The notes beneath the pieces are model-generated. The model saw nothing but the letters and a program-made list of their open reading frames with translations. It did not search any database and was not told the DNA's origin. Shown here piece by piece: positions 1 through 12,523 of a stretch of DNA of 12,994 nt. Position 1 is the stretch's first letter, and every line of letters begins with the position of its first letter. The DNA is from Flavobacteriaceae bacterium (GTDB lineage: Bacteria; Bacteroidota; Bacteroidia; Flavobacteriales; Flavobacteriaceae), in NCBI GenBank assembly GCA_023145595.1, contig JAGLDM010000229.1:1-12994 (forward strand). The letters run 5' to 3'. Position numbers and translations under genes: made by a program.

Positions 1-1014
1 ACACATTATCGGGATATTCTATTAATTATATTCTTTACATCCATTGGACTTGCAACTAAAATTAAGAGCATAATAAAAGGAGGGAAAATATTACTTATTC
101 TTTCAGTTCTAGGTATTGCCTATATTTTTGTGCAAAATTATATCTCCATATTTATTGCTAAAGCATTCAACCTAGAGCCAGTAATTGGTATGGTGTCAGG
201 CTCTACACCTCTACAAGGCGGGCATGGTAACGTTGTCTCTTGGGTGCCGGTTTTTATGGAACAATTTGATGTTTCAAATATTATGGAGATAGGAATGACT
301 ATGGCTACTTTTGGGTTGATTATTGGTGGTCTATTAGGAGGACCCGTTGCAAAATTCCTGATAAAAAAGCACAAATTAAAACCTGATGAAGGAATTGCGG
401 ATTCCGATATTCTTATAGGACAAAAACATGGTGAAAATCTAGTTGTTGATTATGAATCCATGTTGAAAGTTATCATTATGCTAGCGCTATCTATTGGGAT
501 AGGTATATATACTCACGCATTTTTAGAATATATAGATTTCACATTACCCATGTTTGCAACTTGTATGTTAGGTGGTTTAATTGTCGCCAATATTCTTCCG
601 TTGATTAACCCAAAATTGGGGTGTCCTGAAAAATCTCCTGCTCTTTCTATTACCTCAGACCTAAGTTTGGGTTTATTCTTGGCTATGGCAATGATGACTC
701 TTAAGTTTTGGGAAATTGGAGATGAATCCTTTTTTATTATAACGAATATTCTTATCCAAACCATCGCTATTTTACTATTTTCCATATTTGTGATTTTTAG
801 GTTATTGGGAAAAAATTATAATGCAGCCGTAATTTCAGCTGGATATTTAGGCTCTTCAATGGGAGCAACACCAACCGCAATGGCCAATATGGCCGCTGTA
901 ACCAAAGAACACGGATCTTCAGTTATAGCTCTTGCTGTAATACCAATTTTTGGAGCATTTATCATTCAGGTAAGTAATGCAATTGTCATCAATATAATAT
1001 TGATGATACTTTAA
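1..1014 (+). CDS. gltS: Sodium/glutamate symporter, GltS family (5' truncated by the window edge)
   Basis: This is an inner-membrane Na+-coupled carrier for glutamate and possibly aspartate. The frame is open from base 1, so the gene begins upstream; by comparison with E. coli GltS (recalled, not aligned by program) roughly 80 N-terminal residues are missing. A GTG at 130 is internal and should not be taken as the start. The sequence is a series of long hydrophobic segments with the family hallmarks: a FFTSIGL-like segment near the window start, the first pore-loop motif GGHG (about 217-228), a GGLLGGPVA stretch, and in the inverted second half LGLFLAMAMM followed by GATPTAMANM (about 862-891). 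It ends with a short hydrophobic tail. The next gene starts 28 bases downstream on the same strand, so it probably leads or belongs to the asparagine/aspartate operon. Family assignment is firm; the substrate (Glu versus Asp) is inferred. Confidence 0.93.
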   Translation, partial: THYRDILLIIFFTSIGLATKIKSIIKGGKILLILSVLGIAYIFVQNYISIFIAKAFNLEPVIGMVSGSTPLQGGHGNVVSWVPVFMEQFDVSNIMEIGMTMATFGLIIGGLLGGPVAKFLIKKHKLKPDEGIADSDILIGQKHGENLVVDYESMLKVIIMLALSIGIGIYTHAFLEYIDFTLPMFATCMLGGLIVANILPLINPKLGCPEKSPALSITSDLSLGLFLAMAMMTLKFWEIGDESFFIITNILIQTIAILLFSIFVIFRLLGKNYNAAVISAGYLGSSMGATPTAMANMAAVTKEHGSSVIALAVIPIFGAFIIQVSNAIVINIILMIL

Positions 1015-1042
1015 AATAAATAATCAATTAAATCTAAATGTT

Positions 1043-2527
1043 ATGAAAACAAAAAAACAACTATCCTTACTTATCACCTTGCTACTTTTGCTAGTAAGTA
1101 CATCAACTACTTTTGCACAAAAGTATAGAACTGAAACCGACTTATTAGGCGATTTAAAAGTTCCTGCTGATGCCTATTATGGTGCGCAAGGAGCTAGAGG
1201 GATGGAAAATTTTCAAATCTCAGGACAATATATTAATGATTACCCTGACTTTATGAAAGCTTGGGGAATGGTTAAACTAGCCGCTGCCAGAGCCAATACC
1301 GATGTAGGTAAAATGCCTGCCGATATGCTTAAACTTATTGAACCTGCCTGTCAGGAATTAATCGATGGAAACTACCTAGATCAATTCAAACTTGATCTTT
1401 ATCAGGGTGGAGCAGGTACTTCAACCAATATGATTGCCAATGAGGTTCTTGCCAATATAGCCCTTGTAAAAGCTGGCTATAAAAAAGGTGACTATGATAA
1501 AATTTCGCCCAACGATCAATTGAATATGTCGCAATCTACAAATGACGCCTATCCTACTTCTTTAAAAATAACCATGCTTATGCATAATGATAAATTGATA
1601 GCGCAATTAAAGTTATTGATAAAATCATTTAGAAAACTAGGTAACGATAATATAGATATTGTAAAAATGGGTAGAACCGAATTTCAAGATGCTGTACCAA
1701 TGACTGTTGGTCAAGAGTTTCATTCTTTTGCTGCTATGCTTGAATGGGATGTGACCAATATTGAATTTGCAAGTAAATCTTTAACGGTAATCAATATGGG
1801 AGGAACGGCTATAGGTACGGGCTTAAATGCTCCTAAAGGTTATGAAACATCTATAGTTAAACACATAAGAGATATATCTGGTTTTGACTTAAAAAATGCT
1901 GATGACTTGATTGCTGCTACGTCAAGTTTACAAGGTTTTGTAGTATATTCATCTGCTTTAAAAACTTTGGCAACTACATTATCTAAAATTTCAAATGATT
2001 TAATCATTCTTTCTTCTGGACCACGAAATGGTATTTTTGAGATCAATTTACCAGCACGTCAACCAGGGTCTTCTATTATGCCAGGAAAAGTAAATCCTGT
2101 AATAGCAGAATTAATGGCTTTCGTTAGCTACCGTGTTTTAGGTAACGATGTTACAGTAAGTATTGCCGCTTCTGACGGAGATTTGCAGTTAAATGCCTAC
2201 GAACCGGTTGTCGGCTTATCTATTTTTGAATCTCAAAAATTATTAATCAATACGATGAAAACATTTAGAGAACAATGTATTGACGGTATCACTATAAATG
2301 AAGAAGTACACAAACGCAATATGGAAACCACCATTGGTATTGTTACAGCCTTGAACCCAATATTAGGACACCATGTTGGAGATGAATTAGCAAAAGAATC
2401 TATGAAAACAGGAAAAGGAATTTTAGAACTTGTACGTGAGAAAAAACTTCTTACAGAAAAACAAATTAAAGAGATTATGTCTCCAAAAAATATGACAGGG
2501 CTAGATAAATCAAAATACAAAAAATAA
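1043..2527 (+). CDS. aspA: Aspartate ammonia-lyase (aspartase) with a signal peptide, predicted periplasmic
   Basis: Aspartase converts L-aspartate to fumarate and ammonia. It belongs to the fumarase/aspartase superfamily and is normally a cytoplasmic homotetramer. Visible motifs are the GAGTS box at 123-127, STNDAYP at 165-171 (substrate carboxylate binding), MGRTEFQDAVP at 209-219 and the signature GSSIMPGKVNP at 342-352, whose serine loop carries the catalytic base. The 494-aa length is slightly above E. coli AspA because of the N-terminus: residues 1-26 form a Sec signal peptide (KTKKQ, then a leucine-rich core, then TTFA|Q) directly before the normal aspartase start (RTETDLLG). The ATG at 1043 is the natural start and gives a complete signal peptide. 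Two unusual positions are Glu213, where E. coli AspA has Gln and Bacillus AspB has His, and Ile131, where the usual NMNxNEV motif has Asn. Related fumarase activity cannot be excluded, but overall similarity favours aspartase. It is followed by asparaginase after 32 bases. Confidence 0.92.
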   Translation: MKTKKQLSLLITLLLLLVSTSTTFAQKYRTETDLLGDLKVPADAYYGAQGARGMENFQISGQYINDYPDFMKAWGMVKLAAARANTDVGKMPADMLKLIEPACQELIDGNYLDQFKLDLYQGGAGTSTNMIANEVLANIALVKAGYKKGDYDKISPNDQLNMSQSTNDAYPTSLKITMLMHNDKLIAQLKLLIKSFRKLGNDNIDIVKMGRTEFQDAVPMTVGQEFHSFAAMLEWDVTNIEFASKSLTVINMGGTAIGTGLNAPKGYETSIVKHIRDISGFDLKNADDLIAATSSLQGFVVYSSALKTLATTLSKISNDLIILSSGPRNGIFEINLPARQPGSSIMPGKVNPVIAELMAFVSYRVLGNDVTVSIAASDGDLQLNAYEPVVGLSIFESQKLLINTMKTFREQCIDGITINEEVHKRNMETTIGIVTALNPILGHHVGDELAKESMKTGKGILELVREKKLLTEKQIKEIMSPKNMTGLDKSKYKK

Positions 2528-2559
2528 ACAAACATTAATAATAATTAAATATAGAAACC

Positions 2560-3624
2560 ATGAGAAAAATATTTTTAGCATTTTTATTAGTTGCTTTTAT
2601 TTATCCGAGTGCTTTTGCACAAAATAAAAACCTTCCAAATATTGTTGTATTAGCAACAGGGGGAACTATTGCCGGAACAGGAGCAAGTGCTACTGGATCA
2701 AGTTATACAGCCGGTAAAGTAAGAATTGAAGAAATGATAGATGCTGTTCCAAATATCAGGGAATTAGCAAATTTAAAAGGAGAACAAACTACAAATGTAG
2801 GTTCTCAAGATATGAGCGTAGAAGTTTGGCTTATTTTAGCAAACCGAATCAACGAACTTTTAGCAAAAGATGATGTTGACGGGATTGTGATTACTCATGG
2901 GACAGATACCCAAGAAGAAACCGCTTTCTTTCTAAATCTTACTGTAAAAAGTGAGAAACCTGTTGTATTGGTTTCTGCTATGCGATCTTCTACAGCTTTA
3001 AGTGCAGATGGGCCTTTGAACTTATATAATGGTGTTGCCGTTGCTGCAAGCCCTAAAGCTAAGGGGAAAGGTGTGTTAGTTGTAATTAATGATGCTATTC
3101 TTTCAGCTCATTCAGTTAAAAAAATGCTAACGACACCTGTTCACGCTTTTATGTCTCCAGAACACGGACAATTAGGAACCGCTAATTTTGGTCTTGTTGA
3201 ATTTTTTCATGAACCTCACGGTCTTCATACAATAAATAGTCAGTTTTCTGTTGTTGGAGTGAAAAGCCTTCCTCGTGTTGATATTATTTACGGTTGCGCA
3301 GATGTATCTACAGATTTAATTGATCTAATGGTAAAAGCAGGTGCTAAAGGAATTGTTATTGCTGGAGTTGGTGACGGAAATATAAATAAAGGTACGTTGG
3401 CAGCAGCGAAAAAAGCAACAAAAAAGGGAACACATATCGTTAGGGCTTCTCGAATTCCTGTAGGTGCTGTTTTAATACATGGTGAAGTTGTTGATACTGA
3501 TTATGGAACAGTAGCATCAGATGAATTAAGCCCTCAAAAAGCTAGAATAGTTTTGATGCTTGCATTACAACAAAATAAGAATATTAGCAGAGAAGAGTTG
3601 CAAGAACTAATGATTAATTACTAA
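2560..3624 (+). CDS. ansB: Type II L-asparaginase, periplasmic
   Basis: It hydrolyses L-asparagine to aspartate and ammonia; many type II enzymes also have some glutaminase activity. Residues 1-20 are a signal peptide (MRK, hydrophobic core, SAFA|Q), which fits the periplasmic type II class. Every catalytic element I know from E. coli AnsB is visible: nucleophile Thr36 in ATGGTIAGTG, Tyr49 in SSYTAGK, Ser82 in GSQDMS, Thr115-Asp116 in THGTDTQEET, Lys188 in VKKMLTT, and the neighbouring-subunit residues Asn274 (GDGN) and Glu309. The length of 354 aa is normal. It sits between the exported aspartase and the porin. Its product aspartate is the substrate of the upstream enzyme, so the two probably act in sequence in the same compartment. 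The translation has no frameshift or internal stop. Confidence 0.96.
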   Translation: MRKIFLAFLLVAFIYPSAFAQNKNLPNIVVLATGGTIAGTGASATGSSYTAGKVRIEEMIDAVPNIRELANLKGEQTTNVGSQDMSVEVWLILANRINELLAKDDVDGIVITHGTDTQEETAFFLNLTVKSEKPVVLVSAMRSSTALSADGPLNLYNGVAVAASPKAKGKGVLVVINDAILSAHSVKKMLTTPVHAFMSPEHGQLGTANFGLVEFFHEPHGLHTINSQFSVVGVKSLPRVDIIYGCADVSTDLIDLMVKAGAKGIVIAGVGDGNINKGTLAAAKKATKKGTHIVRASRIPVGAVLIHGEVVDTDYGTVASDELSPQKARIVLMLALQQNKNISREELQELMINY

Positions 3625-3636
3625 TTTTTTTAAATT

Positions 3637-4821
3637 ATGAAAATTAAAAAAACTTTAAACCTTGTTCTTGTACTTTTTCTATTTACTATAGGAGTTGCAC
3701 AAGCGCAATTAAGACAAGCAGATAGTACATCAACATATAGAAGCATTATCCCTGAAACAAAACAAGGATTATTGAGTAATGTCGATATGATTGCCAATAT
3801 GCAATTAGGAATGAGAAATGATTTTTTGGACGGCGATCATGTGCAATCTAATTTTAAATTTGAGCAGTTTAGACTTGAAATAAAGGGCTATGTACATGAA
3901 AAAGTTTTCTTTAGATTTAGACATAGATATACTAGTACCTTTGAACCACAGACCGTAGATAAAGTAATTAAGGGAGTTGACTTTGCTTACCTGCGATTTG
4001 ACCTTTCTGACAAAGTACAATTTACTGTAGGTAAGACTTTTGCAGATTGGGGTGGAATAGAGTTTGATCTGAATCCAATTGATATTTACGAATATTCTGA
4101 CATTATTGAAATGGCAGATAATTTTCTTACTGGTGCAGGAGTATATTACCAGGCTTTTGATAATCATGGGTTTTCATTTCAAGTTTTAAATTCCAGAACA
4201 CAATCGTTTGAAGAACTTTATCAGGGTTTGCCAGAGAAGGAAGGATCTGAATTTCCACTTGCATCTGTAATTAATTGGCGAGGAAATTTTTTGGATGGGA
4301 AATTCAAAACTATTTGGTCATATTCTTTATTTAATGAAGCAAAAAGTACTTTTAAGAACTATATAGCTTTAGGTAATCAATTAAATTTGAATAAATTCAC
4401 TGTAGCTTATGATTACAAATGGAGTAGCGAAGGTATAGACAGAACAGGAATAATTAGCAATGATGTTCCGGATACTCTATACCCTTTTGCTTTAGAGAAA
4501 ACACAATATAGTAGTCATTGGCTTAAGGTAGATTACAGGTTTGCAAAAAAATGGCAAGCCAGCTTTGTTGGGTTTGTAGATAACGCAAAATGGATGGATG
4601 ATATAGATCCATTAAAAACTACCGATGACTGGCGAACCGCCTACGGGTTTGTTCCAACCATCGAGTTTTTTCCATGGAATGATTTAAATCTTAAATTCTT
4701 TGCAGGATATGTTGGAAGAGTTTATAATTATTCTGATTATGCAAAATCCCGAGCTGGAGTAAAAGATTATAATACAGGTAGGGTAGTCTTTGGAATAATT
4801 AGTCCTTTACGTATCTTATAA
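3637..4821 (+). CDS. Outer-membrane porin, Porin_O_P (OprP-like) family
   Basis: This is a predicted outer-membrane beta-barrel that lets small, usually anionic, solutes into the periplasm. Residues 1-23 are a signal peptide ending VAQA|Q. The mature protein shows alternating polar/hydrophobic strands rich in aromatics, including a segment of the type FRLEIKGYVHEKVFFRFRHRY and a VGKTFADWGG stretch, both typical of phosphate-selective-porin-like proteins of Bacteroidota. The C-terminus (GRVVFGIISPLRIL) looks like a last barrel strand. It starts only 12 bases after the asparaginase stop, so the two are almost certainly cotranscribed, which suggests it admits asparagine, aspartate or glutamate. 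The family assignment comes from strand pattern and resemblance, not a profile search; the substrate is inferred from context. It is the last gene of the operon. Confidence 0.8.
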   Translation: MKIKKTLNLVLVLFLFTIGVAQAQLRQADSTSTYRSIIPETKQGLLSNVDMIANMQLGMRNDFLDGDHVQSNFKFEQFRLEIKGYVHEKVFFRFRHRYTSTFEPQTVDKVIKGVDFAYLRFDLSDKVQFTVGKTFADWGGIEFDLNPIDIYEYSDIIEMADNFLTGAGVYYQAFDNHGFSFQVLNSRTQSFEELYQGLPEKEGSEFPLASVINWRGNFLDGKFKTIWSYSLFNEAKSTFKNYIALGNQLNLNKFTVAYDYKWSSEGIDRTGIISNDVPDTLYPFALEKTQYSSHWLKVDYRFAKKWQASFVGFVDNAKWMDDIDPLKTTDDWRTAYGFVPTIEFFPWNDLNLKFFAGYVGRVYNYSDYAKSRAGVKDYNTGRVVFGIISPLRIL

Positions 4822-6083: not shown

Positions 6084-7172
6084 TAATTTTCCTTGTAATG
6101 GTCTAAGTATCCCTTTCATTTCCAAATCAAAAAGCAAGGTTGCCAATTTATAAACCGGAATTTTACAACTTAATGCAATCGTATCTACATGTTGTTTTTG
6201 GTTGACCAACAAAAAATCATAAATCAATTGCTCTTCGTCAGAAAGTTCCATGAACAATTGCGGCTGAATCACCTTCCTTTTCTGAGTTCCAACGTCCCAA
6301 TTCAACGCTTCAATCAAATCTTGTGGACAGGTCAATATTCCGGCTTTATTTCTTTTGATTAAATCATTACACCCTTTACTCAAAACATCGGTTGTTTTTC
6401 CTGGTACGGCAAACACATCCCTGCTATAGGAATTTGCAATATCGGCCGTAACTAACGAGCCTCCCTTTGAGGCAGATTCAATAATTATAGTAGCATCTGC
6501 CATTCCTGCTACAATCCTATTTCGTTTTAAAAAATGCTCTCGTAACGGTTCTTCATCATGCCAAAATTCTGTGAAAAACCCACCATTATCATTCACCGAA
6601 TTGATATATTTTTTATGCCCCTTCGGATAAATTTGATCTAATCCGTGTGCTAAAACAGCTATGGTTTGCAGGTTAAAATCTATCGCTTCCTTTTGAGCAG
6701 TGATATCAACTCCGTAAGCGAATCCGCTTACAATAATTGGGTTGTAAGGAGCAATCTCTTCAATTAATTGTTTGATGAAATCACGACCATACAAGGTCAT
6801 TTTACGAGTGCCAACAATACTAATTATAGGCTGATTTTGAATATCTATATTCCCATCCTTAAACATTAAAATTGGAGCGTCGATGCAATGCTTTAATTTC
6901 TCAGGATAAGCATCATCCTGAAAATAAACGTATGCTGTTTTTTTAGAAAGAACATGAGCAACTTCCTTTTCTGCTCTTAATAGTAATTCTTTATTCTTAA
7001 GATTTTGAACCGTGATTCTTCCAATTCCGTTTATTTTTTCAATCGCAGATTTTTTTTCCGAAAACACATTTTGCGCAGAACCGCAATGTGAAATCAACTT
7101 TTTGGCAATAATATCTCCAACACCTTTGGCCTTTTGAAGGGCCAAAACAGCAATTAATTCTTCTTCTAGCAT
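6069..7172 (-). CDS. dprA: DNA-processing protein DprA
   Basis: DprA binds incoming single-stranded DNA and loads RecA during natural transformation. The 367-aa product shows the expected order: an N-terminal helix-hairpin-helix/SAM-like region (about 1-65, with KGVGDIIAKKL and INGIGRIT); the Rossmann-fold core with SIVGTRKMTLYGRDF (118-132), VSGFAYGVDITAQ (148-160), LAHGLDQIYPKGH (174-186), RNRIVAGMADATIIIES (217-233) and KGGSLVTADIA (236-246); then a C-terminal winged-helix region (about 308-367). The frame can be opened from a TTG at 7193, but the ATG at 7172 (MLEEELIAVL) is the normal DprA start and is used here. The unknown gene follows on the same strand. The HU/SPOR gene is divergent, with about 96 bases between the two starts. 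The gene is intact with all core motifs. Confidence 0.96.
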   Translation of the reverse strand: MLEEELIAVLALQKAKGVGDIIAKKLISHCGSAQNVFSEKKSAIEKINGIGRITVQNLKNKELLLRAEKEVAHVLSKKTAYVYFQDDAYPEKLKHCIDAPILMFKDGNIDIQNQPIISIVGTRKMTLYGRDFIKQLIEEIAPYNPIIVSGFAYGVDITAQKEAIDFNLQTIAVLAHGLDQIYPKGHKKYINSVNDNGGFFTEFWHDEEPLREHFLKRNRIVAGMADATIIIESASKGGSLVTADIANSYSRDVFAVPGKTTDVLSKGCNDLIKRNKAGILTCPQDLIEALNWDVGTQKRKVIQPQLFMELSDEEQLIYDFLLVNQKQHVDTIALSCKIPVYKLATLLFDLEMKGILRPLQGKLFEVI

Positions 7173-7252
7173 TTGTAAAAAATTGACTTTCAATATACAA
7201 AAGAATTGTTAATAAATTATCTGATAAATTATAAACAACACGTCCTTTTTGC

Positions 7253-7260
7253 TATATTTG
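7253..7260 (+). promoter_or_regulatory. Possible -7 promoter element (TATATTTG) before the HU/SPOR gene
   Basis: TATATTTG is an exact match to the Bacteroidota -7 form TAnnTTTG and ends 8 bases before the ATG at 7269. No convincing TTG/TTTG is found 17-23 bases upstream. If real, it would give an almost leaderless mRNA. It supports 7269 rather than the upstream ATG at 7206 as the start. Confidence 0.3.
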
Positions 7261-7268
7261 TTCTATAT

Positions 7269-8225
7269 ATGAGAATAGACTCTTACATCAGCGAATTACT
7301 ATACCGTTACAATTGTGTAATTGTACCTAATTTTGGCGGCTTTATTACCAATGAAATCTCTGCGAAAATAAATTCAACTACACACACGTTCTATCCTCCT
7401 ACTAAACAAATTTCATTTAATCGTTACCTACAAAATAATAATGGGTTATTGGCAAACTATATTGCGACTGTTAATAACATCTCCTTTTCTAAAGCTCTAG
7501 GGATCATTGAAGAAAATGTAGAGAAATGGAATCAATCACTTCAAAATGAAGCTCTTGAACTTGAAAAAATTGGAACACTCTCTTTAAACACTGAAGGTAA
7601 TATCTTATTCGAACCGTTAGTTTCAGAAAATTACTTAACGAATTCGTTCGGGCTTTCTAGTTGTACCGTACCATTGGTAAACAGACCTTTGGCAAACAGA
7701 CCTTTGGCAAACAGACCAAAAGTTGTAAAAAAACCTGTTATAGTTTTAGACCCTGTTCTTTCTGATGATGTTAGCAGAAGAAAAATGCCTGTTTTTCTAA
7801 AAGTTGCCGCTTCGGCTGCAATCTTATTTGCTATTGGTAGTTTTACATGGAATAATTACAATCAAAAACAATATCAAGAGCAATTAATAACGGAGCAGCT
7901 ACAACAAAAAGAAGTGAATCAAAAAATACAGGAGGCTACTTTTGTAATTCAGAATCCACTTCCTACCATTACCCTAAACATTACCAAAGAAGTAAATCAG
8001 TACCATATAATTGCCGGAGCGTTTAGAAACCCAATCAATGCCAATAACAAAGTACAACAATTGATTTCTAGCGGGTTTGATGCGCAAATTTTAGGCATTA
8101 ATAAATGGGGATTAACACAAGTTTCTTTCGCTAGTTTTAATTCTAAAATTGAGGCCCGAACACAACTAAAACAGATTAAAAAATCTATTTCTTCTGATGC
8201 TTGGTTATTAATTCAGGAATTTTAA
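7269..8225 (+). CDS. Membrane protein with CCDC81-type HU-like N-terminus and SPOR domain
   Basis: This 318-aa single-pass protein has three parts. Residues 1-120 (opening MRIDSYISELLYRYNCVIVP, then NFGGFI) match the prokaryotic HU-CCDC81 type of HU-fold domain found in Bacteroidota. A basic linker with LANRP repeats precedes one membrane segment (about 175-193, VFLKVAASAAILFAIGSF). After a Q-rich stretch (about 199-222), residues 243-315 (YHIIAGAFRNPINANNKVQQ onward) form a SPOR domain, which binds denuded peptidoglycan at division sites. The predicted topology is N-terminus in the cytoplasm and SPOR in the periplasm. An ATG at 7206 would add 21 residues, but homologues I recall begin at MRIDSYI, and a TATATTTG box lies between the two ATGs, so 7269 is chosen. 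The role is inferred to be in envelope or septum organisation; DNA binding by the HU-like part is unproven. Confidence 0.88.
   Translation: MRIDSYISELLYRYNCVIVPNFGGFITNEISAKINSTTHTFYPPTKQISFNRYLQNNNGLLANYIATVNNISFSKALGIIEENVEKWNQSLQNEALELEKIGTLSLNTEGNILFEPLVSENYLTNSFGLSSCTVPLVNRPLANRPLANRPKVVKKPVIVLDPVLSDDVSRRKMPVFLKVAASAAILFAIGSFTWNNYNQKQYQEQLITEQLQQKEVNQKIQEATFVIQNPLPTITLNITKEVNQYHIIAGAFRNPINANNKVQQLISSGFDAQILGINKWGLTQVSFASFNSKIEARTQLKQIKKSISSDAWLLIQEF
7674..7718 (+). repeat. Three tandem 15-bp repeats coding for (LxNRP)x3
   Basis: Three in-frame 15-bp units read TTGGTAAACAGACCT, TTGGCAAACAGACCT and TTGGCAAACAGACCA, coding LVNRP, LANRP, LANRP (residues 136-150). Copies 2 and 3 differ only at the last base. 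They lie in the linker between the HU-like region and the membrane segment. Near-identity at DNA level suggests recent slippage, so copy number may vary between strains without breaking the frame. Confidence 0.85.
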
Positions 8226-8380
8226 ACCTCACAAAACACCTCTTTTTGTTTGATTCTTTGAGATTGTATTAAGTTTCTCTTTACTCCAAGAAATCGATCG
8301 AACAGTTTTCTTCTGATTATTCTAAAAATCATTTAGTAGAGATTCCGGCTAAAGTTTATATTTACATAAAATTATATACA

Positions 8381-8890
8381 ATGAAAGCGAAAAATCCGAA
8401 AGACTCACTAACTGTTTTAACGGATATGGTTTTGCCTGGTGAAACCAACCCACTAAACAACCTCTTTGGAGGTGAGTTATTAGCGAGAATGGATAGAGCC
8501 TGTAGTATTTCTGCACAAAGACATTCTAGAGAAATTACAGTAACAGCCTCTGTAAATCATGTAATTTTCAGAAAAGCAGTACCTGTTGGAAGTGTGGTTT
8601 CTATTGAAGCAAAAGTATCTCGTTCTTTTAATTCATCTATGGAAATTTATGCAGATGTTTGGATTGAAGACCTTAAAACTGGTAAACGCACCAAAGTTAA
8701 CGAGGGAATTTACACCTTTGTTGCTGTGGATAAAACAGGTATTCCTGTGAAAGTTCCAGAATTAATTCCAGAAACCGATTTAGAGAAAGAACGATTTGAT
8801 AGCGCGCTGAGAAGAAAGCAATTAAGTTTGGTTTTGTCGGGGCGTATGAACCCGAACGACGCTACAGAATTAAAATCTTTGTTTTCATAA
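8381..8890 (+). CDS. Acyl-CoA thioesterase, hotdog fold (BACH/YciA type)
   Basis: It is predicted to hydrolyse acyl-CoA to free fatty acid and CoA in the cytoplasm. The 169-aa protein is a single hotdog domain. It opens with TVLTDMVLPGETNPLNNLFG (11-30) and GGELLARMD (30-38), which holds the Asn/Asp region typical of the family. It continues with ASVNHVIFRKAVPVGSVVSI (56-75) and a final strand (VNEGIYTFVAVD, 106-117), then a charged helical tail. The start ATG at 8381 is the only sensible one and follows an AT-rich leader. The 155-base gap upstream shows no gene, and its only promoter-like element (TATATTTA at 8357-8364) is weak. The 3' end converges with the DHH-like gene, with only 10 bases between stops. 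Confidence 0.92.
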   Translation: MKAKNPKDSLTVLTDMVLPGETNPLNNLFGGELLARMDRACSISAQRHSREITVTASVNHVIFRKAVPVGSVVSIEAKVSRSFNSSMEIYADVWIEDLKTGKRTKVNEGIYTFVAVDKTGIPVKVPELIPETDLEKERFDSALRRKQLSLVLSGRMNPNDATELKSLFS

Positions 8891-8900
8891 TAAAACACTA

Positions 8901-9836
8901 TTAATAGAAGGTAACACTAAAATTATCATCTTTCTGATCACTTTTTACAAAGGCGTACGAAAATACGCGCCTTCCGTTTATCGTATTAAATGTGTTTAGT
9001 TCTAAAATTTGCTTTTTATCTAATTTCAATCTTTCTGATTTTCCTTTAAACTTTTTGTAACCCACATTGAGGTCAAACACTTCAATTTCGATTAAATCTG
9101 CCAAAAACTGAAAGTACCTTTTCCCATTTTCTTTTAATTTTCCTTCTGAAGTTAATTCATACATTCCGCCATCTGAACGGTCGCAATTGTACGGAGCCGA
9201 TTTTAAAACTTGACCAATAATTCGTTTTATGTCTTCTGTGTTTTCGGGAGTCAAAAGATCTAAATATTCGGTTAATTCAGAAATTATTTTACCGTTTTTA
9301 GAAAACTCTTTTAACCATCCCCACCATTGTGCTGCATTTTTTATATACCGGCTATTCACGGTTGTTTTCATAGCGTCATCTACCCGCAATAAAGCATCAA
9401 CAAATGAAATCCCGTTGATAGATTTCTTTAAATCAAATTGCATTTCAATTCCTTCTCGTTCTAACAATGCAATAATAAAATGCACCGTTCCAAATGGATA
9501 TTTAGTGCGATATGAACTATTTGGGACGTGAAATCTTGGCTGCAATAAATTCGGGTTTATCTTATTTTGATTTTGACTCAGCGTATTAAAATGCTCCTCA
9601 TTTGATGCAATAATATGCTGATCAACACAAATTACAGTTGGATTGGCAAGAAAAATATCTACAAAACAAACATCGGCATAAGCAAAACTAGACTCTTCAT
9701 CAAACCAAACAAATTCATCGCTATTTGTAAATCCGACAATCTTACAATTCAAATATTTCTTAAGAATCAAACCACTAAAAACTCCGTCTAAATCAGAATT
9801 GATAATAATGGGTTTATTTCTTAACTTTTGAATCAT
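8901..9836 (-). CDS. DHH-phosphoesterase-like protein paired with the DNA methyltransferase
   Basis: This 311-aa protein is not a family I can name. Its first 160 residues show the order of motifs of DHH-superfamily phosphoesterases (RecJ, NrnA and relatives): a strand then Asp15-Leu-Asp17-Gly (IIINSDLDGVFSG, motif I), an isolated Asp60 after a hydrophobic strand (CFVDIF, motif II), ICVDQHII with Asp72-Gln-His74 in the place of DHH (motif III), a segment KYPFGTVHFIIALLE (112-126), and GISFVDALLRVDDAM (142-156) with Asp153/Asp154 as a possible motif IV. The first His of DHH is Gln. The C-terminal 150 residues are charged and show no domain I recognise. Its ATG overlaps the methyltransferase TGA (ATGA at 9833-9836), so the two are translationally coupled. 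A DNA- or nucleotide-cleaving effector is therefore plausible but unproven. HAD phosphatases share DxDG, but their other motifs are absent. Confidence 0.82.
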   Translation of the reverse strand: MIQKLRNKPIIINSDLDGVFSGLILKKYLNCKIVGFTNSDEFVWFDEESSFAYADVCFVDIFLANPTVICVDQHIIASNEEHFNTLSQNQNKINPNLLQPRFHVPNSSYRTKYPFGTVHFIIALLEREGIEMQFDLKKSINGISFVDALLRVDDAMKTTVNSRYIKNAAQWWGWLKEFSKNGKIISELTEYLDLLTPENTEDIKRIIGQVLKSAPYNCDRSDGGMYELTSEGKLKENGKRYFQFLADLIEIEVFDLNVGYKKFKGKSERLKLDKKQILELNTFNTINGRRVFSYAFVKSDQKDDNFSVTFY

Positions 9837-11269
9837 AAAAATAGATTAAGCACTTTTTCAAAAATGGATTGAACAACCTTTACGTTTACCGAATTCCCTA
9901 ATTGTTTCAGGGCAACTCCGTTTGTTTTTGAAAGCTGATAGTTGTCCGGGAACGATTGCAATCTTTTAGATTCATCAATCGAAATTCGCCTCCGGTATTT
10001 CCCCACAATTTGTTGATGATTCATAGCCACTAAAGTAGAAAATTTATGAGGTCGTTTTACACGTACTCCCGACGGTCTAAACTGAATAATACAGTCGAAA
10101 ATAGATTCATAATCTTTACCTGCTTGCCATTCCATTTTTCGATGGGTTTTAATACACCAATCCAAATTTTCATGCTCTAATAACCAAGCATCAATAAAGG
10201 TTTTATTTCTACTGTATAAATCGATATTTTTTTGAATGAACTTTGCTTTCCATAGCGGATATTCATCCAAACAGCCTTCGTGTTTAAAAAACTCCATCCA
10301 AACAGGAAAACCAATTACTTTTAAATCAACTCCTTTATAAAAGGCGTCCCACATGGTAAGGACACGCTCTTCATAAGGTGATAAATTAGGTGGTAAATTA
10401 GCATCCAAAAAATTGTCAATCGATTCAATTTCTGAAGCAAAGTTTTTCTCAATTTCAAGTTTAAACTTCTTGATTTTAGACACTTTTCCTTTAGTAATAT
10501 CCTTTCTTACGCATGGTATATAAATACGCGGTCTCAAAATAGGCACTCCAAATTTATCTGGTGATAAGATTAACGGTTCTTCAGGAAAATAATAACCCAA
10601 CGCATCCAAACTATTTAAAATAGTTCGATACGTATTTCCTTTATCATGTGTCACCAAATTGGCAACATTTTCTAAAAACAAAAATTTAGGTTGATGCTTT
10701 TCTATGATTTCACACAAATCAAAAAACAAGGTTCCTCGCGTATCTTCAAACCCGTTTCTAAAGCCGCCTTTTGAAAATGGTTGACACGGAAAACCAGCAC
10801 ACAAAACATCAAAATTGTCCGGAATAAAATTCTTTACTTCGGGTTTTGTAATATCACCAAAGGGGTATTCTCCGTAATTTTTAAAATAGGTATTTTTTGC
10901 ATTTTCATCCCATTCTGAAGTAAAAACACACTCCCCTCCTAAGCGCTGTAATGCCATTCTAAATCCGCCGATACCAGCAAACAAATCAATAAACTGAAAT
11001 GACGGTTTTTTATTTGGAAGAAAATTCCCTGTTGATGTGTTTTGGACTAATTCTGCCAATAACTCTTTTGAGGTTACACCCAACAATTCGTTTTCTTGAA
11101 TATATTCAGTCAGAATCTCTTCAGCTTCTTTTTTATAGAATGTAGTATTATCGTCTTGTTTAAAATGGTGTAAATAATGAGTAATTACCGCCTTTGATTC
11201 AGAACCAATACCCAATTCGTTCTTTCTTGAATCAAAATTAAAAAATTCGCTATTTTTCTTAGCAATCAT
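9833..11269 (-). CDS. DNA (cytosine-5-)-methyltransferase, Dcm-like
   Basis: It transfers a methyl group from SAM to C5 of cytosine in a specific DNA sequence. Motifs in order in 478 aa: I FIDLFAGIGGF (93-103), IV AGFPCQPFS (158-166) with nucleophile Cys162, VI LENV (199-202), VIII VPILRPRIYI (242-251), IX SIDESKRLQSFP (430-441) and X QLGNSV (456-461). The usual Gln of motif VIII (QxRxR) is replaced while Arg246 and Arg248 remain. A 90-residue N-terminal extension, as in E. coli Dcm, precedes motif I. The variable target-recognition region (about 255-425) is long and contains aromatic segments (GFPVWMEFF, YPLWKAKFIQKN) seen in a methyltransferase subgroup whose target I cannot state. It starts 42 bases after the envC stop and overlaps the DHH-like gene by 4 bases. 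No Vsr or classical restriction gene is adjacent. The cassette interrupts housekeeping genes, suggesting acquisition. Confidence 0.95.
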   Translation of the reverse strand: MIAKKNSEFFNFDSRKNELGIGSESKAVITHYLHHFKQDDNTTFYKKEAEEILTEYIQENELLGVTSKELLAELVQNTSTGNFLPNKKPSFQFIDLFAGIGGFRMALQRLGGECVFTSEWDENAKNTYFKNYGEYPFGDITKPEVKNFIPDNFDVLCAGFPCQPFSKGGFRNGFEDTRGTLFFDLCEIIEKHQPKFLFLENVANLVTHDKGNTYRTILNSLDALGYYFPEEPLILSPDKFGVPILRPRIYIPCVRKDITKGKVSKIKKFKLEIEKNFASEIESIDNFLDANLPPNLSPYEERVLTMWDAFYKGVDLKVIGFPVWMEFFKHEGCLDEYPLWKAKFIQKNIDLYSRNKTFIDAWLLEHENLDWCIKTHRKMEWQAGKDYESIFDCIIQFRPSGVRVKRPHKFSTLVAMNHQQIVGKYRRRISIDESKRLQSFPDNYQLSKTNGVALKQLGNSVNVKVVQSIFEKVLNLFL

Positions 11270-11311: not shown

Positions 11312-12523
11312 TTACATCTTATAAATCCAAAGAGCTGGATTTAATCGTGTCGTGTTTTTCCAAATTTGAAAACTCAAAATAGTTTTATTTGTAATTTTAT
11401 CGGTATATATTTTCCCTAAAACCTGTTTGATAGAAACTTTATCCCCCTTTTTAACCCGCACACTTTCCAAACCGCTATACAGAGTAATATAACTTCCATG
11501 CTGTACAAAAACGGCCTTTTTATTTCCAGAAACTTTTTGAATTAATAAAACAGTTCCGCCAAAAGAGGCTCTGGCATTACTTCCTTTTGCGGTTGTAATA
11601 CGCACTCCGTTACTCTGAATTTCATTGTTTTTATAAATCGGATGCTTTTGTTTTCCATATCTAGTAGATACAAATCCATTATCTACCGGCCAAGGTAACT
11701 TACCTTTATTCCCTTTAAACTTTGTAGCCACCAACTTTGTTTCTGCCGTTAAAACAAATTTTGACGATTTCTTACCCTTTTTCTTGTTGGCTTTAGCAAT
11801 AGCATCTCTAATAATCTTATCTATTTTGGCGTTTATTCGTTGTTGCTGCTTCTGCTTTTCAATAATCTCTGCCTTATACTTTTTTTCTTGTTTTTTAATC
11901 TCCGAAACAATTTCTTCTTGTGATATCTTTTCTTCTTCTAATTTTTTCTGTTCCTTTTTACTACTTACTCGTAATTTTTCTTGCTCTTTTCTTCTAACTT
12001 TCAACGTGTTATTCAGTTGCTCCATTGTTGCCGCTTTTACAGCAATTTGCTCTCCTTGAGTTCTTCTAAAATCAGTATATTGTTTCATATACTGCAACCT
12101 TTTGTAGGCTTGGTAAAAATTATCAGAAGACATAACAAACATAATCCTACTCTGTTCTGATTTACTTTTGTAGGATTTGTAAATCATGTCACCATAATCC
12201 TTTTTTAACGCTTTTAATTCAGCCCTGAGCACATTTATTTTGTTCTGATTTCTTCTAATTTCACTATTAATTGCTCTAGATTCAGCATTGTAAGCAGCAA
12301 TTAATTTTTCTTGAATATCAATTTTTAAAATAATTTCATTTAGTTGACTCAAATACCCCTTTTCCTTAGAAACAGCTTCCGATAGCAACTTGTTAATTTG
12401 TATTTTTTCTCTCTGAATTTCTTTTCTTTTCGCCTCTAATTCTTTACGAGTTTCTTGAGCAACAGAACTGAAGCTAATGAATAGCAATAGACAAATAATA
12501 AAATAGGAGTTTCTTTTATTCAT
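11312..12523 (-). CDS. EnvC-like murein hydrolase activator (degenerate LytM/M23 domain)
   Basis: It is predicted to activate cell-wall amidases in the periplasm during cell separation rather than cut peptidoglycan itself. Residues 1-22 are a signal peptide (MNKR, hydrophobic core, SSVA|Q). Residues 23-245 are a long, charged coiled coil rich in K, E and Q with a break near 110-160, as in EnvC. Residues 275-403 are the LytM domain. Metal ligands of active M23 peptidases are lost: the H-x-G-x-D site reads SNGVRI (304-309), the later HL position is SGL (350-352), and the terminal HxH reads LSFQIW (383-388); only the HG of VQHGSY (340-345) remains. This matches the non-catalytic EnvC class. Its start lies 8 bases inside the end of the upstream DUF4292 gene, so the two are coupled. 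No ftsEX genes are visible in the window. Confidence 0.9.
   Translation of the reverse strand: MNKRNSYFIICLLLFISFSSVAQETRKELEAKRKEIQREKIQINKLLSEAVSKEKGYLSQLNEIILKIDIQEKLIAAYNAESRAINSEIRRNQNKINVLRAELKALKKDYGDMIYKSYKSKSEQSRIMFVMSSDNFYQAYKRLQYMKQYTDFRRTQGEQIAVKAATMEQLNNTLKVRRKEQEKLRVSSKKEQKKLEEEKISQEEIVSEIKKQEKKYKAEIIEKQKQQQRINAKIDKIIRDAIAKANKKKGKKSSKFVLTAETKLVATKFKGNKGKLPWPVDNGFVSTRYGKQKHPIYKNNEIQSNGVRITTAKGSNARASFGGTVLLIQKVSGNKKAVFVQHGSYITLYSGLESVRVKKGDKVSIKQVLGKIYTDKITNKTILSFQIWKNTTRLNPALWIYKM

Follow-up and report, generated by a model that had tools for sequence, protein, structure and literature searches.

The window analyzed here is a whole stretch of 12,994 nucleotides (contig JAGLDM010000229.1, assembly GCA_023145595.1) from a member of the Flavobacteriaceae, and the subject is a pair of its genes encoding a 5-methylcytosine (m5C) DNA methyltransferase and a 311-residue protein predicted to have a fold like that of the DHH phosphoesterases. 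The DHH-fold protein is probably the sequence-matched nuclease of a compact restriction-modification module, a reading to which a rough probability of 0.6 is assigned. It is likened to a restriction enzyme because it is coupled to methyltransferases, because its partner methyltransferases have a recognition region in common, and because a relative keeps the methyltransferase alone. In the proposed mechanism the variable region of the methyltransferase would determine which short DNA sequence is marked. The DHH-fold protein, as the matching nuclease with a divalent-metal site composed of D15, D17, D60, H74, and D153, would cut DNA in which that sequence is unmethylated, for example phage or plasmid DNA entering the cell. 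What the sequences show is the pair, the predicted fold, the conserved set of active-site residues, and the coupling to methyltransferases; that the protein depends on a metal, acts as an endonuclease on double-stranded DNA, is sequence-specific, is blocked by methylation, and serves in defense is inferred. The odds lean slightly toward the broader proposal that these proteins form a further catalytic class, namely DHH-fold nucleases that cut unmodified DNA and accompany m5C, N4-cytosine (N4C), and N6-adenine (N6) methyltransferases; the proposed class, unnamed in the databases searched, would span viruses and archaea as well as Bacteroidota, Bacillota, and candidate-phylum bacteria.

The gene pair and the predicted fold of the 311-residue protein

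The two open reading frames (ORFs) overlap by ATGA, and their coordinates and overlap are exactly as given in the initial annotation. The features of the pair are listed below; A1 denotes an alignment of 61 family sequences, and the second alignment comprises 66 family ORFs including one duplicate (L065 is the same as L033).

8901..9836, minus strand: DHH-fold protein, 311 amino acids (ORF list, 116 homologues, structural model); proposed restriction nuclease or nuclease accessory
9833..11269, minus strand: m5C DNA methyltransferase, 478 amino acids (PF00145, PADLOC MTase_II); proposed protecting partner
9783..9794, minus strand: motif I, D15-x-D17-G18; invariant in A1
9657..9659, minus strand: motif II, D60; invariant in A1 and among the residues kept together in 58 of 66
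9615..9623, minus strand: motif III, D72-Q73-H74, a DHH variant; H74 in 62 of 66, the other four being gaps
9486..9503, minus strand: KYPFGT at residues 112-117, a signature of the family that is not among the classical DHH motifs; K112, P114, and G116 in 62 of 66, the rest gaps
9378..9386, minus strand: motif IV, R151-x-D153; D153 in 62 of 66, the rest gaps, and R151 in 54 of 66
10004..10483, minus strand: variable (target-recognition) region of the methyltransferase, residues 263-422, with bounds set by the analyst

The methyltransferase matches PF00145 (2.3e-78, residues 91-473) and the PADLOC model MTase_II (1.2e-92), and the motifs FIDLFAGIGGF, GFPCQPF, ENV, and QLGNSVNV are recognized by eye, so that the enzyme looks intact, as had been annotated. 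No other PF00145 match was found in the window's genome, an assembly that is 77% complete.

The residues first named in the 311-residue protein (DxDG, D60, DQH, and a later DD pair) are present in the order found in DHH phosphoesterases. This order is not a matter of chance, because the motif residues are invariant in the 61-sequence alignment, where N13, D15, D17, G18, D60, Q73, H74, R151, and D153 never vary and D72 is nearly invariant. The five residues of the putative metal site occur together in 58 of the 66 aligned ORFs; the remaining eight are incomplete or frame-broken, with D17N in the broken L034 copy. N167 and W171 are also conserved across the family.

The structural model of the protein (predicted local distance difference test score 97.1, predicted template modeling score 0.94) was submitted to a fold search, the check proposed along with the initial annotation. 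All 50 rows listed by VIA-align are DHH-superfamily structures, at moderate Z values of at most 7.6, and the matches listed include the phosphodiesterases DhhP and GdpP, nucleotide phosphatases, and nanoRNases. Foldseek alone gives no E below 0.001 for either the window protein or a second model, and 48 of the 50 rows it lists for the second model are unrelated folds; the structural case is made from the VIA-align rows, the motifs, and the two models together. The 311-residue protein is thus modeled as carrying a DHH-like fold and is filed as such, not as a classical DHH protein. With the DHH superfamily (RecJ, NrnA, DhhP, GdpP, Cdc45, and family II pyrophosphatase) it shares this predicted fold and the order of a motif I DxD, a motif II aspartate, a triad ending in histidine, and a motif IV aspartate. 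In place of the literal DHH triad the window protein has DQH, and members of the N4C branch of the family have GHH, GQH, or GNH; the KYPFGT signature is a further difference. As to a C-terminal domain of the DHHA1 or DHHA2 kind, many of the structure alignments run to residue 311, yet no GGGH, the motif of DHHA1, is seen by eye in A1.

Sequence libraries contribute little to this assignment. The 311-residue protein has no Pfam match above cut-off, PF01368 included (the best is DUF1400, E 0.012), no match in NCBIfam, PADLOC, or PHROGs, and no sequence match in the PDB; PF01368 is weakly matched by one of the 61 family members (E 0.0095). The only PDB sequence matches of the A1 profile are weak ones (SuWA, plectin, and SpaA), and alignment A3 has none. 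Scattered low-scoring family matches (DUF1400, PHA-1, PtuB in 3 of 39, FldA, and others) were judged to be chance. No restriction-enzyme family appears among the PADLOC, Pfam, and NCBIfam matches of the window protein and its scanned relatives, in agreement with the earlier remark that no known endonuclease family was apparent.

Coupling to DNA methyltransferases with and without linkage

Genomes scanned with one sequence as the query yielded no relative, and scanned with the family alignment they yielded 57 loci. Some of the loci analyzed are near-duplicates (L051/L052, L071/L073, and L033/L065); gene lists are longest-ORF calls, not curated annotation, and many of the genomes are incomplete assemblies. 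At 37 of the 57 loci a DNA methyltransferase gene is found no more than 4.5 kb from the DHH gene: 28 of these methyltransferases are m5C enzymes related to that of the window, seven are of N4C/N6 type (L050-L053 and L055-L057, with PF01555 confirmed for L050 and L057), and two are N6_Mtase (L043, confirmed by a family match, and its homologue in L045, 57% identical). L007 is a 38th linked locus, whose two genes lie on separate contigs (C118 and C103) of genome G004, and the methyltransferase of L021 is a contig-end fragment only, 3 kb from the DHH gene. Counting those elsewhere in the genome, a cognate methyltransferase was found for 53 of the 57 loci (38 nearby and 15 elsewhere), together with one frame-broken copy, and three loci are without a convincing partner. 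The DHH subtype tracks the methyltransferase type. At the 27 m5C loci having a methyltransferase longer than 300 residues, the two genes are on the same strand in 21 and face each other in six, so the association is not that of one frozen operon. Whether homologues always stand next to an m5C methyltransferase, as the initial annotation asked, can be answered in part: they are neither always adjacent nor always accompanied by an m5C enzyme, but a DNA methyltransferase is nearby at 38 of 57 loci. The idea of a chance neighbor was discarded, since more than one type of methyltransferase recurs with the DHH gene and the association is seen also in the absence of linkage.

The unlinked cases are found in 18 genomes having a lone DHH gene. 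Homologues at ordinary loci without a methyltransferase had been named beforehand as evidence against the proposed module, and they do occur, but 12 of the 18 genomes hold an intact m5C methyltransferase of the window type elsewhere, one holds a frame-broken copy, and three of the five lacking this type (those of L042, L044, and L046) hold an N6 methyltransferase of the L043/L045 type at 47-50% identity. A full-length m5C match is defined as one piece running from residue 90 or before to residue 467 or beyond; in G364, one of the 12, a single TAG precedes an intact 401-residue methyltransferase ORF. The N6 matches span residues 15-518, 13-518, and 8-435, the last in G371 and beginning at the end of a contig; in three m5C-type genomes the N6 methyltransferase is absent from two and weakly matched (23%) in the third. 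No convincing partner was found for L014 and L054 with the m5C or L056-type queries, nor for L014 with the N6 type, or for L058, for which the L056-type query alone was tried and the best match is 36% over part of the length.

Window-type methyltransferases are otherwise rare. Although 126 of 296 Bacteroidota genomes (125 of 295 without the window's own) match the window methyltransferase in some way, a full-length match is found in none of the 295 others among the matches listed, best first, with up to five first-look candidates scored per genome. Four genomes (G161, G166, G263, and G331) match in two weaker segments extending into the recognition region and were not counted as full-length. 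Among relatives without a DHH gene, a full-length match occurs in one of 51 (G006). By Fisher's test, 12 of 18 differs from 0 of 295 (p 1e-17) and from 1 of 51 (p 2e-8), neither value being corrected for kinship.

The methyltransferases coupled to DHH genes also share the region expected to determine the target. In the best-matching m5C methyltransferases of 26 loci picked by adjacency, 155-160 of the 160 columns of the variable region align with the window enzyme, at 31-72% identity (partial or broken L021, L028, and L034 were excluded from the pair set). The 12 unlinked methyltransferases fall in the same range, partly through selection since they were chosen as full-length. As controls, usable methyltransferases were obtained from nine of 14 loci offered from genomes without a DHH gene: eight of them share the catalytic part with the window enzyme (52-68%) and differ in the variable region (12-21% over 78-146 columns), and the ninth, L115 from G006, has the variable region at 72%. 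Distances between DHH proteins correlate with distances between methyltransferases (r 0.46, n 39, 0 of 5,000 permutations), as they do for the unlinked pairs and the window only (r 0.56, n 13, 1 of 5,000), both without correction for host kinship.

In G006, of the same genus as the window and 97% complete, the methyltransferase is flanked by the thioesterase and M23 genes that also flank the window's pair. No DHH gene was found in this genome, and 19 bp separate the stop codons of the thioesterase and methyltransferase genes; the DHH gene may have been lost in G006 or gained in the window's lineage. In L028 the methyltransferase is intact and the DHH gene is in three pieces. By analogy with restriction-modification systems, a lone methyltransferase is the remainder expected when the restriction enzyme is lost first. 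The G006 copy, the same enzyme at the same locus, resembles in this respect the orphan m5C methyltransferases, unlike the window copy with its ATGA-overlapping partner.

Third genes and alternative roles

Several observations weigh against the restriction-enzyme reading. The genome of L022 combines an intact DHH gene with the frame-broken methyltransferase mentioned above, perhaps an assembly error. The weak relatives L072 (viral contig, 7941-8894) and L176 (5956-7044) have no adjoining methyltransferase, and L176 lies on the Alkaliphilus plasmid pB6464 beside dnaE. Of the 27 m5C loci, 17 carry a third gene, encoding a protein of the unnamed family R300 at 13 and an MTaX1 protein at four, and at L043 and L045 the N6 methyltransferase and DHH gene are accompanied by a protein of a second unnamed family, R373, that looks PD-(D/E)XK-like by eye. 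Examples of the unnamed families are as follows.

L024:2818-3726, plus strand: R300, unnamed family of about 300 residues; also at 12 further loci (13 of 57 DHH loci)
L043:8915-10036 and L045:5665-6813, plus strand: R373, unnamed family of 373-382 residues with GIDSALIT...IEFKEP; beside the N6 methyltransferase and DHH gene

R300 proteins have the conserved motifs TGxE..E, TQxD..GP(A/S)D, and G(L/I)S(I/V)K, from which, by eye, the family is a candidate PD-(D/E)XK restriction enzyme; the four members scanned have no library match, the family profile has no PDB sequence match, and none was found in plasmids. MTaX1 (PF20296), a protein unrelated to the DHH-fold protein yet found beside DHH genes in relatives, adjoins the DHH gene in L015, L037, and L038, with homologues in L013 and L047, and the three MTaX1 proteins tested match the PADLOC type II restriction-enzyme model. 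MTaX1 reportedly may discriminate modified DNA and occurs in several restriction-modification systems (PMC10853773). No MTaX1 was found in the window's genome, though the control of that search also gave no match.

With another candidate nuclease encoded at 17 of the 27 m5C loci, the DHH protein may have an accessory role, for instance as an exonuclease or nicking subunit acting at the sites of a separate PD-(D/E)XK enzyme; the window's module would then have lost, or been parted from, its main endonuclease. The type II matches of MTaX1, the composition of L043 and L045, and the exonuclease activity of the RecJ-type DHH nucleases all favor this alternative. It is nevertheless considered unlikely, although it survives better than the others: none of these three third-gene families is present in the window, at 10 of the 27 m5C loci, or at the seven N4C/N6-type loci, although some other nuclease may be encoded there; the third gene varies in family where the DHH protein and methyltransferase are constant; and beside the 12 unlinked methyltransferases MTaX1 is found once (L128) and R300 or R373 not at all within about 1.5 kb.

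An improbable alternative is repair or sanitizing tied to methylation, by a mismatch enzyme like Vsr or a phosphohydrolase of modified nucleotides. An enzyme coupled to a methyltransferase may serve purposes other than restriction, the structures listed for the model include nucleotide phosphatases and nanoRNases, and a DHH subtype that follows the methyltransferase type would suit such a role. Repair of deamination, however, fits m5C best, whereas the relatives of the DHH protein, unlike Vsr-type mismatch endonucleases, are not limited to m5C enzymes and pair also with N4C/N6-type and N6 methyltransferases. A sanitizer should moreover help any m5C enzyme, yet the DHH gene is found in none of the 295 Bacteroidota genomes, apparently the same draw in which 125 match the m5C methyltransferase.

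Hydrolysis of a cyclic nucleotide or oligonucleotide in signaling defense, with the methyltransferase a mere neighbor, is very improbable despite the similarity of the predicted fold to DhhP and GdpP, since no recurrent neighbor cluster is cyclase- or receptor-like by eye, the partners share a recognition region, and a methyltransferase accompanies the DHH gene even when unlinked. The initial annotation had proposed the DHH-like protein as an effector, either a nuclease restrained by methylation or a nucleotide-signal hydrolase; the former gains support from recurrent methyltransferase coupling in distant phyla and from a pattern of presence and absence like that of such a nuclease, and the latter is disfavored.

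As a sequence-matched nuclease, the DHH protein would resemble the partner in a type II restriction-modification system: a methyltransferase is paired with an unrelated gene, the pair is polymorphic for presence and absence, and the methyltransferase is retained alone in G006. Several relatives have small helix-turn-helix (HTH) genes close to the pair, and that of L024 matches control-protein models as well as other HTH families. Few catalytic folds are known among site-specific restriction enzymes, and the known activities of DHH enzymes are those of exonucleases, nanoRNases, and phosphatases of small molecules. A difference from type II enzymes is that the 311-residue partner was assigned to none of the catalytic classes (PD-D/EXK, HNH, GIY-YIG, PLD, and half-pipe) by which a 2014 review groups them; the word DHH occurs 0 times in the text of that review (PMC4081073). 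DHH proteins are described as counter-signaling phosphodiesterases of jumbo phages (PMC7824862), and in another source DHH appears in the reference list only (PMC1564403). No DHH restriction enzyme is reported in the titles and abstract beginnings listed by searches of open-access papers. If confirmed, a DHH-fold restriction enzyme would be a new catalytic class, would explain what a large unnamed family (697 matches) does, and would be a source of new candidate sequence-specific nucleases; even as an accessory, the protein would be a conserved component of restriction-modification that the libraries searched do not recognize.

Distribution of the family and genomic setting

The initial protein search returned 116 homologues, none with a Pfam domain, and the 697 database matches (E 0.001 or better) come from a profile that includes distant members. 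The best 120 of the 697 likewise have no Pfam domain, are called "hypothetical protein" where the source names them, and come from organisms including Patescibacteria groups, archaea, Planctomycetes, and Anaerolineae. The window-type DHH gene is rare in Bacteroidota, occurring in one of 296 genomes, the window's own, with up to seven first-look candidates scored per genome; another search found it in eight of 13 relatives in the window's genus and in none of 46 others. A phage collection gave no match to the family, and a plasmid collection gave none to the window protein and one weak match for a distant member.

The flanks of the pair are as follows.

8381-8890, plus strand: thioesterase-family gene (PF03061)
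11312-12523, minus strand: M23 peptidase gene (PF01551), weakly EnvC-like

A LolB-like gene is also among the flanks. The description of the pair as lying between housekeeping genes holds, because these neighbors are thioesterase-family, M23 peptidase, and LolB-like genes.

Other arrangements were observed in relatives, of which the tandem DHH copies and the two viral contigs count in favor of a restriction module. Tandem diverged DHH copies occur at L025:4302-6320 (35% identical), L032:6950-8942, and L029:6951-8942 and are reminiscent of heterodimeric restriction enzymes, and L027 and L041 have two m5C methyltransferases each. In the near-identical viral contigs L071 and L073 (approximately 7069-9996) the DHH gene has an m5C methyltransferase on either side, and both resemble the window's so weakly that, by eye, they could be another subfamily. 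At L051:7697-10387 and L052:729-3434 a methyltransferase of N4C appearance (TSPPY) seems by eye to have a LexA-like N-terminal half and is convergent with a small HTH gene and the DHH gene. Elsewhere in the window, positions 1-4821 on the plus strand hold, by eye, a run of genes for a glutamate/aspartate-type transporter, aspartate ammonia-lyase, L-asparaginase, and an outer-membrane porin.

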